Assembly (NCBI GenBank): GCA_019752335.1
Contig: JAIEMJ010000001.1
Span: 124,001 to 188,000, forward strand
Length of the DNA: 64,000 nt
Source: Bryobacteraceae bacterium
Lineage (GTDB): Bacteria; Acidobacteriota; Terriglobia; Bryobacterales; Bryobacteraceae
Reading direction: 5' to 3'
How positions within the stretch are numbered: position 1 is the first letter of the stretch; each line of letters opens with the position of its first letter. Below the pieces are notes generated by a model that was not told the DNA's origin, did no database searches, and worked only from the letters and a program-made list of their open reading frames with translations. Of this stretch, positions 7,950 to 41,847 are shown one piece after another. The translations under genes and the position numbers were made by a program.

Positions 7950-7997
7950 CGGTTTTCCGAAAAAGCGCCTGGAAAACGGCATCAATCGCGAACGGGC

Positions 7998-8017
7998 CCC
8001 ACCTCTTACGAGGTGGG
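7998..8017. repeat. REP-like palindrome, class 1, single copy (A)
   Basis: CCCACCTC-TTAC-GAGGTGGG forms a perfect 8-bp stem with a TTAC loop (GTAA on the other strand). It lies between two convergent genes and is followed by no T-tract, so it is not a standard intrinsic terminator. The same design recurs at 19423-19442, 27373-27392 and 27450-27469. Upstream sequence (aaaaagcgcc) resembles that before the copy at 19423. Confidence 0.7.
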
Positions 8018-8075
8018 CTCCTCGGGGTCAAAAGTAAGTAAGGTAACCATTCAATTCGAGCGGTTGAAGGGTCAG

Positions 8076-19352: not shown

Positions 19353-19422
19353 AGCTAGTAACCCGTCTGGAGAGGGCTTGCGAGACGCGGGGAGTTCTGG
19401 CCGGAAAAGCGCCGAAACGTGC

Positions 19423-19442
19423 CCCATCGCTTACGCGATGGG
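19423..19442. repeat. REP-like palindrome, class 1, single copy (B)
   Basis: CCCATCGC-TTAC-GCGATGGG is a perfect 8-bp stem with a TTAC loop. It lies in the convergent interval between the DUF1501 gene and the gluconate dehydrogenase subunit-like gene. The preceding text (gaaaagcgcc) resembles that before the copy at 7998. There is no T-tract. Confidence 0.7.
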
Positions 19443-19479
19443 CTCTACGGTGTTCGTCGACGGTGACGTTCATGCGGCG

Positions 19480-27369: not shown

Positions 27370-27472
27370 CAGCCCACCGCGTGAGCGGTGGGTTACATTG
27401 TCTGACCGGCGAGAAGCCCAGCTAAATAGGCATATTCCCCGCACGGTAACCCATCGCTCACGCGATGGGCTG
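27370..27472. repeat. REPIN-like inverted pair of class 1 palindromes (C and D)
   Basis: Copy C (27370-27396) and copy D (27446-27472) are 27-nt elements in opposite orientation. C folds as CCCACCGC-GTGA-GCGGTGGG and D, read on the minus strand, as CCCATCGC-GTGA-GCGATGGG. They differ only by a C-G to T-A change on both sides of the stem, so pairing is kept. The 49-bp middle shows no gene. The element fills most of the interval upstream of the DUF6986 gene. Confidence 0.8.
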
Positions 27473-27552
27473 TCAGGGATCCCAGCACATTTTGGCTGGA
27501 TGAACGGAGCTTGGATCCTTGGGCTTCTTGATGTCTGACAGCTTGCGGAGCG

Positions 27553-27581
27553 ATCCCCTCCCTTACGGTCGGGGTTCGTTA
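27553..27581. repeat. REP-like element, class 2, single copy (E)
   Basis: The 29-nt sequence is identical to the right arm of the class 2 pair at 39936-39964 and nearly so to that at 31296-31321. It contains the core CCCTTACGG. No left partner is seen within 150 bp, so it is an orphan arm. With elements C/D it makes the 293-bp interval 27335-27627 almost entirely repeat-derived. Confidence 0.75.
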
Positions 27582-27627
27582 GGGTGGCTGGAATCGTCGG
27601 CGAAATGCGGCGCATGCGGCGATGGAT

Positions 27628-31084: not shown

Positions 31085-31193
31085 CTTCCCATCCGTTGTG
31101 CTTTTTTGCTGGGTTTTCGGGGAAAATCCGCTACTTTGCCCCACCTCTGAGTCTGAGCTGAGAGGCTCAGAAAAAATCGGCAGACGTGCCCAC

Positions 31194-31321
31194 AACGAAC
31201 CCCGACCGTAAGGGAGGGGAAGTCTGGCTTGGGCGCCTATTCATGAAACAGGAGATTTCATTGGGCTTTTTGATCGATGAATGCCTGCAGCGCGATCCCC
31301 TCCCTTACGGTCGGGGTTCGT
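31194..31321. repeat. REPIN-like inverted pair of class 2 elements (F and G)
   Basis: The left arm F (31194-31220) and right arm G (31296-31321) are inverted copies with the core CCGTAAGGG. They bound a 75-bp middle that contains gggctttttgatcga, a motif shared in part with the other pair at 39834-39964. A flank motif atcggcagacgt lies just left of both pairs. The element occupies most of the 308-bp convergent interval 31085-31392; the remainder contains the dyad GAGTCTGAGCTGAGAGGCTC-like repeats (CTGAG direct copies) but no gene. Confidence 0.8.
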
Positions 31322-31392
31322 CAGGAGGTCCAAGACCGCAGGCCGCACAGTTTTTCTGAGCGTTTAACGCGGCGGGCTGTCCAGATTTCACG

Positions 31393-39796: not shown

Positions 39797-39833
39797 GCTG
39801 TGACCGTGTGGTTTGTATCGGCAGACGTACCGC

Positions 39834-39964
39834 TAACGAACCCCGACCGTAAGGGAGGGGATGCTTGGCCCGCGGGCGTTTTTCTGCATACATCCGACTT
39901 TGAGCGGCTTTTTGACCGACGGGGCTTGCGAAGCTATCCCCTCCCTTACGGTCGGGGTTCGTTA
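39834..39964. repeat. REPIN-like inverted pair of class 2 elements (H and I)
   Basis: Arm H (39834-39862) and arm I (39936-39964) are perfect inverted copies over 29 nt, with the core CCGTAAGGG. The 73-bp middle has ggctttttgaccgac, close to the middle motif of the pair at 31194-31321, and the same flank motif atcggcagacgt lies left of arm H. This is the best-preserved member of the class. It lies between gcvPB and a co-directional GT39-like gene, so it may also separate transcripts. Confidence 0.85.
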
Positions 39965-39995
39965 CGGGGCCGGAAACCGCATGGTACTTTTTTGA

Positions 39996-40013
39996 GCCCC
40001 TTACGCGATGGGC
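39996..40013. repeat. truncated class 1 palindrome (J)
   Basis: The sequence reads GCCCC-TTAC-GCGATGGGC, identical to the copy at 19423 except that the left stem lost ATCGC. It cannot form the full stem and looks like a decayed or deleted copy, 32 bp after the class 2 pair. Confidence 0.55.
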
Positions 40014-40035
40014 TCGCCGAAGTGGAGTCCGCGCG

Positions 40036-41847
40036 GTGACCGTACCTCGGCTCGTTTCACTGCTGCTGCTAGTGGGGGCCGCCCTCGCGGCCCGCTTGGT
40101 CTTTCTGTCGCACCCCATCCAGGGCGACGACTACTACTATCTGGCCAGCGCCATGTACGGCCAGACTGACCCCCTGCACCCGCACCACGCGCACTACGTC
40201 TTTCAAGGTAAGGACGTCGATATGCGCGGCCATCCGCATCCGCCGCTGAACGCCTGGCTTTTGACGGGCATTCTGGCATTAACCGGAGAGCTGCGCGAAG
40301 CCACGCTGCATGGCTTCTATCTGCTGCTATCGCTATTGGCGGTCGGCAGCATGTGGGCGCTGGCGCGGCGCGAGTCGCCGCATCCGGTGCTGGCGACGGC
40401 GTTGGTGGTGGCGTCGCCGGCTTTTCTGGTGAGCGGCAATTCGCTCGAAAGTGACCTGCCGTTGTTCGCGTTTTGGCTCGGTGGCGTGGCGGCGTTTGTC
40501 TATCGGAAGACGTGGCTGGCGGTACCGCTACTGGCCTGTGCGGGCTTGGCGGCGTACCAGGCGGTGACGCTGGTGCCGATCCTCTGGTTGTACCTGTGGC
40601 TGAAGCAGCGCGATTGGCGCGCGGGCTGGATTCTTGCCTGCACGCCGGCTCTCGTGCTGATCGTCTGGACGATCTTTGAGCGGGTCACGGGCGGCGCGTT
40701 CCCGGTGGCGGTGGCGGCGGGGTACTTCAGCGAGTACGGCCTGCAACGCCTGTCGGCCAAGCTGCGCAATGCCGCCGCGCTGAGCGGCCATCTCTTTTTC
40801 GTCGTGGGGCCGCTGCTTACCGGCGCCATGGTGGGTACGCTCTGGAAGTACCGCCGCCGTTTCGATTCGACCCACTGGTTTCTGGTGGGCTGGCTGGGGA
40901 TCTTCTTCGCGGCGGCATTGGTGTTGTTCTTCGCGGGCTCCGCGCGGTATCTGCTGCCGCTGCTCCCCGCCGCTGCTCTACTGACGACCCGGGTACTGGC
41001 GGGCCGCACGCGACTCCTGGCGGCGGGGGTCGCCCTGCAGGCCTTGGTGGGAGCCGCACTGGCGGTGGCGAATTACCAGCATTGGAAGGGCTACCAGGAG
41101 TTCGTCGCGCGGCATCAGGGCGAGTTCGCCAATCGCCGCGTCTGGGTGAACGGCGAGTGGGGGCTGCGCTACTACGCCGAGGCGCTCGGCGGGCTCCCGC
41201 TGCGCCTGGGCCAAGCGGTGCAGCCCGGGGATCTGGTGCTGTCGAGCCAACTCGCTTACCCGATTCCTTACACCACCGGCGGCGGCACGCTGACGCCCTT
41301 CGCCCAGACGGCGATTACGCCGTCGATGCCGCTGCGGTTGGTGGGTTTGACGGCCCGTTCGGCCTGGTCGACGGCGAGCATGGGGCTGCTGCCGTTCGAC
41401 ATTTCGCGCGATCCGGTGGATGTGGTCCGCGCCGATATCGTCGTGGAAAAGCAGCCGACGCTCTCCTTCCTGGCGATGGGCGATCCGGCGGCCGAGAGCC
41501 ACTTGGTGAGCGGCATCTATCAGCTAGAGAGCGGCAAGTTTCGCTGGATGGGCGAGCAAGGCTCAGTTTTTTTGAAGGCGAACGGCGAGGTCGCGCCGCT
41601 GGAAGTGAAGCTCTACATTCCGGACGCCGCGCCGGCGCGCGAAGTGACGGTCGAGGTGGATGGCCGGGAGGTTGGCCGACAGCGCTATGCCGGCGCTGGC
41701 CTCTATGACTTGAAGACCGCGCCGGTGCATTGGCCGCGCAACCGCGCGCTGGTGACGGTGAAAGTAGACCAGGCTTTCGTCGCCCAGGGTGACACGCGAC
41801 GGTTGGGCATGATTCTGCAGGAGATTGGCTTTCGTGTGGCTCGCTAG
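40036..41847 (+). CDS. GT39/PMT-like membrane glycosyltransferase
   Basis: The 603-residue protein (GTG start at 40036) has about ten to twelve hydrophobic helices in its first 350 residues and a soluble C-terminal part. After the first helix come a loop with GDDYYYLASAMYG and RGHPHPPLNAWLL, which matches the acidic first loop of family 39 mannosyltransferases that bind a lipid-linked sugar. The C-terminal region has beta-like segments. It could transfer a sugar from polyprenyl phosphate to proteins or glycans. No polyprenyl donor gene is adjacent. Family assignment is by loop pattern only. Confidence 0.65.
   Translation: MTVPRLVSLLLLVGAALAARLVFLSHPIQGDDYYYLASAMYGQTDPLHPHHAHYVFQGKDVDMRGHPHPPLNAWLLTGILALTGELREATLHGFYLLLSLLAVGSMWALARRESPHPVLATALVVASPAFLVSGNSLESDLPLFAFWLGGVAAFVYRKTWLAVPLLACAGLAAYQAVTLVPILWLYLWLKQRDWRAGWILACTPALVLIVWTIFERVTGGAFPVAVAAGYFSEYGLQRLSAKLRNAAALSGHLFFVVGPLLTGAMVGTLWKYRRRFDSTHWFLVGWLGIFFAAALVLFFAGSARYLLPLLPAAALLTTRVLAGRTRLLAAGVALQALVGAALAVANYQHWKGYQEFVARHQGEFANRRVWVNGEWGLRYYAEALGGLPLRLGQAVQPGDLVLSSQLAYPIPYTTGGGTLTPFAQTAITPSMPLRLVGLTARSAWSTASMGLLPFDISRDPVDVVRADIVVEKQPTLSFLAMGDPAAESHLVSGIYQLESGKFRWMGEQGSVFLKANGEVAPLEVKLYIPDAAPAREVTVEVDGREVGRQRYAGAGLYDLKTAPVHWPRNRALVTVKVDQAFVAQGDTRRLGMILQEIGFRVAR

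Follow-up and report, generated by a model that had tools for sequence, protein, structure and literature searches.

What kind of element is the pair of long inverted arms near 39.8 kb of the 64,000-nucleotide stretch of a Bryobacteraceae bacterium analyzed here (the window), and how did it come to be there? An earlier note on this DNA had described it as REPIN-like. The answer that we consider fairly probable is that the arms are hairpins (F1) related to those of class 3 TnpA, a rare HUH/Y1 transposase, and that the doublets they form are often cargo of a ~203-bp unit that lands in the loops of a second hairpin family (F2).

The anatomy first reported for the locus holds when recomputed: the arms are 29 nt long and 100% complementary, with 73 nt between them (Table 1). 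The second member, at 31195-31321, has perfect 26-nt arms with 75 nt between. As had been said, it shares more than its arms with the first, since the left-flank motif ATCGGCAGACGT recurs there at 31176-31187 and GGCTTTTTGA-CGA is present in the middles of both pairs.

Table 1. Repeat features in the window, by position in the 64,000-nucleotide stretch
Feature	Position	Strand	Remarks
F2 hairpin CCCATCGCTCACGCGATGGG adjoining half copy	27450..27469	.	
Half copy: one arm and right part of middle	27516..27583	+	core 27555-27574
Whole 203-bp outer unit with inner hairpin pair (31.2 kb)	31162..31364	+	ends GAGGCTCAGAAAAAAT / AGTTTTTCTGAGCGTT
Left inner arm, 31.2-kb unit	31195..31220	+	
Right inner arm, 31.2-kb unit	31296..31321	-	
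Stretch absent from syntenic site in G001 (same genus)	39808..40035	.	
Left-flank motif ATCGGCAGACGT, common to both pairs	39817..39828	+	
Left arm, 39.8-kb pair	39834..39862	+	core CCCCGACCGTAAGGGAGGGG 39841-39860; foot ACGAA 39836-39840
Right arm, 39.8-kb pair (exact inverted copy)	39936..39964	-	core on minus strand 39938-39957
Decayed right outer end TACTTTTTTGAGCCCC	39985..40000	+	by eye; 6/16 mismatches, below end threshold

That these arms belong to a dispersed family, as the earlier note had supposed, is borne out by the whole genome (7.2 Mb). The 20-nt arm core CCCCGACCGTAAGGGAGGGG matches it 85 times at up to 3 mismatches, compared to 0 for a reversed-pattern control, and matches the window 5 times, compared to 0 in 100 shuffles; because both the shuffled window and the reversed genome pattern gave none, chance is excluded for the arms. 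The 85 matches fall at 54 places, 31 of them inverted REP-like doublets and 23 single arms. This is well above the ten or so copies, consistently paired, on which the earlier note had made the existence of a family depend. By hand count, 36 neighboring arm pairs lie less than 200 bp apart, 31 with their feet outside, 3 with feet inside, and 2 direct. The spacers between the 20-nt cores of the 31 pairs measure 66-78 nt in 18 cases, 106-116 in 6, and 27-39 in 5; the last two are 84 and 91. A covariance model of the hairpin gave 87 matches in the same genome at E ≤0.1, scoring 150 of 6258 candidates. Searched against GTDB genomes, the exact 26-nt arm pattern hit a single stretch, one isolated arm, in a Phycisphaerales MAG. 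The assembly of the window species is a draft, 97% complete, and contigs C2, C6, C10, C29, C30, C42, C43, and C45 end at or near the repeats. Because the assembly breaks there, the numbers of copies given are minima, and the gaps may hide the missing enzymes. The 54 places, and the 20 units considered below, were gathered by arm or outer-end patterns and so do not sample all repeats independently.

Taken singly, an arm is itself a REP-type hairpin, with a stem that covaries between species. Its form is a foot followed by CCNC-GA-CC-GNNA-GG-GA-GNGG. A pattern search of other genomes that made no demand on pairing gave, among the matches listed, 68 with a changed stem base; by hand count of these, again among the matches listed, 54 were compensated to another Watson-Crick pair, 10 were compensated to G-T, and 4 were broken. 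In two sets of distinct rows, whose counts lean towards structure because the scan of relatives requires most pairs and in which related rows are counted many times, 49 distinct hairpins showed both-side changes in 28 cells, with 97.6% of cells paired, and all 65 distinct rows had 28 such cells compared to 9.3 when shuffled (0/500 as high), with 95.6% paired. The 49-hairpin set leaves aside four hairpins whose differences are confined to foot or loop, as well as several decayed copies from the window species; the 65 rows comprise 42 from relatives, found by a scan requiring most pairs and GA opposite GA, and 23 from the species itself. For the 49 hairpins, the covariation score was 0.277, compared to 0.083 for shuffles (0/500 as high) and at most 0.080 with slid partners; the signal is mostly that of one pair (23 rows), to which two inner pairs add 5. 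The rows from the window species alone contain 2 both-side cells, a number reached by 16/500 shuffles. The fold of one hairpin by itself is no more stable than that of shuffled sequence (z -0.59), and the arm pair folds far better, the 131-nt strand reaching -49.5 kcal/mol as DNA (z -10.2). Among 200 genomes of the order, 107, from 53 of 75 genera, match the hairpin model at E ≤0.01; F1 hairpins are old and widespread.

Which enzyme might such hairpins serve? The expectation of a Y1-type transposase gene flanked by the same arms did not hold in the window species, where no ACGAACCCCGACC arm lies within 1 kb of any of the 20 Y1_Tnp genes on the contig sequence available (19 genes at ≤5 mismatches; the 20th, L057, at ≤3). 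Flanks lie partly or wholly outside the contigs for L057 and L073, which are at contig ends, and for L067, which has less than 1 kb on one side. A RAYT beside the arms was rejected within the same 1-kb reach. A Y1 transposase gene of another type, with no arms beside it, lies at 188851-189099 of contig C4, ~0.9 kb past the right end of the window.

Three of the 20 genes, on contigs C53, C4, and C15, form a branch separate from the rest. F2 hairpins, of the type CCCATCGC-GTNA-GCGATGGG (consensus AGCCCRYCGC-GTNA-GCGRYGGGCT), flank the C53 and C4 genes, and one was seen by eye beside the C15 gene; the GNNA loop is common to F1 and F2. The C53 gene, with its F2 hairpins, is an unbroken frame of 162 aa, and the frames on C4 and C15 are broken. 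These genes agree with class 3 TnpA as PMC6006769 describes it, on account of the flanking CnGA-foot hairpins, the high copy number in Solibacter usitatus, and the Y----Q motif. That paper, in the portion drawn on here, places Acidobacteria among the hosts, reports that the hairpins flank class 3 genes and are dispersed, with ~600 copies in S. usitatus, and suggests that class 3 TnpA may stand between IS200 transposases and RAYTs, a point for which experiments are still needed. A class 3 gene on C3 has neither F1 nor F2 hairpins; it is flanked on both sides by another repeat, of the GGGACCCGTCACTTCGTTCCGGGCTTGCC type (L140, ~1800-2470). On C39, a class 3 gene that appears to have an internal deletion is flanked by a structural F1 variant.

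In relatives, Y1 genes flanked by F1 hairpins do occur, and they belong to the class 3 TnpA branch rather than to the RAYTs. A search of 61 genomes with one class 3 protein found class 3 genes in 18. F1 hairpins are present at 12/29 class 3 loci of relatives, 6 of them with hairpins on both sides, where 25 of the 29 matches were scanned strictly and 4, all from one genome and none with F1, by a looser scan; the other 17 have different or F2-type hairpins, or none. The strict scan extended ≤1.5 kb to either side, yet its 22 hairpins are all no more than 280 bp from the gene. The motifs given in that part of PMC6006769 are NHVH, W[TA], and YV[VI]xEQ. Among 25 class 3 proteins, we found NHVH in 11, W[TAS] in 23, Y....QG in 24, and the narrow published Y motif in 5. 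With NCBIfam, two class 3 proteins fall between the RAYT and IS200 models, below both cut-offs; a search of solved structures with the class 3 protein gave nothing meaningful. In a tree of 26 class 3 proteins, hairpin type is clustered (shuffles as low: 10/500 for F1 and 4/500 for F2), which is clustering only, not a single origin. Feet differ: relatives mostly carry C[ACGT]GA, the same genus CAGAA or CTGAG, and the window species ACGAA. Because this foot is ACGA, not CnGA, we call F1 a relative or variant of the class 3 hairpin and not a strict member; because F1 flanks class 3 genes in relatives, we take the element to work like a REPIN of the class 3 system, not of GTAG/RAYT. The term "REPIN-like" can thus be kept as a description of how the element works and dropped as a claim of canonical membership, since there is no GTAG guide.

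The shared flanks had also been read as the mark of a defined unit. That reading is supported for 21 of the 31 pairs, in which an outer end (GAAGCTCAGAAAAAAT / ATTTTTTCTGAGCTTC) lies within 75 bp on both sides (13 pairs) or on one (8 pairs), compared to a background of 0.3% per flank; the other 10, at this threshold the 39.8-kb copy among them, have neither end. With at least one outer end framing 21/31, F1 pairs are often not the ends of the moving DNA. Because 10/31 lack an outer end, the doublet also existed alone or lost its frame. A foot-side outer end was found at 5 of the 23 single arms. Over 203/203 bp, from GAAGCTCAG to CTGAGCTTC, the copies C6:132689 and C23:70796 do not differ, and their flanks are unrelated except for TGA on both sides. 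Complete copies remain identical for 38 bp leftward and 48 bp rightward of the 20-nt cores, up to the outer ends, and their ATCGGCAGACGT motif stands after the left outer end and before the left arm.

We could delimit 20 units of 124-291 bp, after setting aside two overlapping double calls; the longest (L191, 291 bp) is doubtful, 16 measure 194-236 bp, and 13 contain an F1 pair. Identical triplets flank 10/20 units, compared to 1.9% of random intervals; matched TNA triplets flank 9/20 (0.025% of random intervals), and 11/20 are placed between the halves of an F2 hairpin (0.16%). TNA with a different middle base stands on the two sides of 4 units, including the 31.2-kb unit with its TGA / TAA, and TNA is missing on one or both sides at 7/20. 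Among the 10 oriented F1 units with TNA on both sides, the triplets match in 7, against 3.8 expected from reshuffling, and 2.9% of reshuffles reach that number. For these 10 F1 units the TNA on either side is certain, and a copied target is likely. In the orientation of the family, the matching triplets have three middle bases (TGA, TCA, and TTA). The clearest landing case is L015, which reads GCCCCGCCGC-TGA-unit-TGA-CGCGGCGGGCT; L039, 93% identical and in the same orientation, has TCA/TCA compared to the TGA/TGA of L015. A supposed difference in triplets between near-identical copies on C3 and C6 was rejected, as both read TGA/TGA when brought into one orientation. Outer ends also enclose F2 hairpins (L051, L187, and L193).

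The outer unit is MITE-like: short and gene-less, with terminal inverted repeats, sharp ends, and multiple copies. Outer-end matches number 36 in the genome of the window species, 0 in the same-genus genome, and 10 over 39 others (reversed control, 2), so that among 41 genomes the unit is abundant only in the window species. It looks recent and local for this reason. An autonomous IS with the same ends was not seen, in that none of the 48 outer-end matches formed an inward-facing pair 0.6-3 kb apart.

The 39.8-kb copy itself departs from this pattern. It lacks the left outer end, and its decayed right end is followed by TTA (40001-40003) and a right F2 half, CGCGATGGGCT (40004-40014). In G001, the neighboring genes are in place and 43 bp correspond to the 296 bp of window positions 39801-40096; in G002, 102 bp correspond to 354 bp and the site is empty; G021 has other sequence there. 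No arms were seen at the syntenic stretches of these three genomes. The segment missing from G001 is flanked by an 8-bp direct repeat, GTGACCGT, at 39800-39807 and 40036-40043; as a target duplication of the family this was rejected, and it is kept only as a one-copy observation. Relative to G001 the copy counts as an insertion, but it does not exemplify the outer unit cleanly.

Two inverted F1 hairpins with their feet outside make up a REPIN-like doublet, and class 3 TnpA, acting on hairpins of single-stranded DNA, may have made it, as the association with class 3 genes suggests. In the window species the doublet has often become cargo, its copies spreading as the ~203-bp unit, as the sharp ends and the identical copies in unlike flanks show. 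This unit tends to sit in the GTNA loop of F2, with TNA on both sides, an anatomy seen in roughly half the units. The outer ends could be acted on in trans by a cut-and-paste transposase that duplicates 3 bp, as the anatomy of the insertions suggests, and the 39.8-kb copy would be an older or truncated member. Counting against this explanation are the 8-bp repeat and the missing left outer end at that copy, which the TNA model leaves unexplained, the ACGA foot in place of CnGA, and the covariation within the window species, with its 2 both-side cells. So do the lack of an inward-facing pair 0.6-3 kb apart among the 48 outer-end matches, the modest excess of matching triplets, the 10/31 pairs with no outer end, and the fold of the single hairpin. 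One can further envision two unrelated transposition chemistries on one element, in which an HUH/Y1 class 3 enzyme makes the doublets and a cut-and-paste system wraps the doublet in ends of its own, uses the loop of a second class 3 REP, and builds REP-in-REP nests that offer new landing sites; this we put forward tentatively, and we lean against it.

Class 3 TnpA alone might instead move the whole nested unit, with outer ends, F1, and F2 all as single-stranded hairpin substrates, and with the TNA supplied by the F2 loop on one side and by the unit on the other. Class 3 genes are indeed present, with F2 hairpins beside them and an unbroken frame on C53; F1 and F2 have the same loop, the 48 outer-end matches yielded no other enzyme, and the triplets match only modestly more often than after reshuffling. 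Still, the three middle bases among the matched triplets speak against it, as does the fact that IS200-type HUH transposition is not known to copy its target. We regard this account as unlikely on balance. The older picture of a self-contained REPIN, whose 29-nt arms are its ends and which is moved by a RAYT, accords with the inverted doublets and conserved spacers, with the 10/31 pairs lacking outer ends, and with the presence of 20 Y1_Tnp genes, one of which lies beside a GTAG-tagged inverted hairpin of another family. For framed copies it is largely refuted, however, by identity that continues past the arms to the outer ends, and with no arm within 1 kb of those genes on the contigs at hand and no GTAG guide, we hold it to be quite improbable. 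That the hairpins are kept for a role in RNA, as a bidirectional terminator or a stabilizer of mRNA 3′ ends, with their spread secondary, seems to us more improbable still. The folds are very stable (-103 kcal/mol for the 203-nt unit as RNA, in addition to the value for the 131-nt DNA strand), and the 39.8-kb copy adjoins, just downstream, a gene resembling a glycine dehydrogenase subunit; but an Rfam search of the window matched no family at gathering score, and the element is not needed in G001, where the site is empty and the genes are in place.

Our preferred reading, F1 doublets as frequent cargo of a unit that lands in F2 loops, can be set beside known systems, as these are described in the parts of the papers drawn on here. 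With the class 3 TnpA system (PMC6006769) the family shares hairpins beside class 3 genes, many copies, the CnGA foot of relatives, and protein motifs that are similar in part; it differs in the ACGA foot of the window species, in having no intact cognate gene beside F1 there, and in the outer frame on many copies, which is absent from those parts of that account. REPIN/RAYT systems (PMC3733652 and PMC3116915) are alike in their inverted REP doublets with feet outside (HH), spacers mostly of 20-100 bp, and dispersal; unlike them (PMC3733652), F1 has no GTAG or CGTC tag and no RAYT beside it, and framed copies do not end at the arms. In GTAG-15 of A. variabilis and CGTC-1 of H. neapolitanus, a REP pair also sits inside an outer inverted repeat, whereas the relevant parts of PMC3733652 mention no flanking duplication or second REP as target. 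A preference for landing in REPs has precedents, in that IS elements of five families are reported to choose REP sequences (PMC1525189). IS1397, ISKpn1, IS621, and ISPpu9 are, like our unit, mobile and choose REP landing sites, but the unit here is ~0.2 kb long and gene-less and carries a REP doublet. REP counts for three Acidobacteriota are given in PMC12306157, which in the portion drawn on here does not treat class 3. Among the open-licence PMC papers listed, we found no gene-less mobile unit carrying a REP pair and, by titles and the starts of abstracts, no REP-carrying MITEs in Acidobacteria. For class 3 TnpA, these results add a covarying hairpin consensus and an association of gene and hairpin that spans many species, together with one species whose hairpin pair was captured as cargo. 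They also suggest that REP nests could grow, every landing site being itself a mobile repeat.

Several observations lie beside this argument. The window contains F2-type hairpins without an outer unit inside, at 7987-8019, 19412-19444, and 27450-27469, which are possible landing sites. On L071 (~1653-1714 and 2304), the Y1 gene stands between a GTAG-tagged 25-bp inverted hairpin and a matching inverted repeat, a distinct REP/RAYT set of canonical appearance within this genome. A tmRNA gene (L171, 1046-1397) adjoins an outer unit that encloses F2-type hairpin sequence. Finally, at the end of contig C42, a match to the Rfam family Intron_gpII (L206, 591-669; 40.2 bits compared to a cut-off of 40) lies just inside the end of an outer unit, and the start of C30, with no Rfam match itself, has sequence similar to this intron part after the same outer end; these repeats may be landing sites for group II introns as well.
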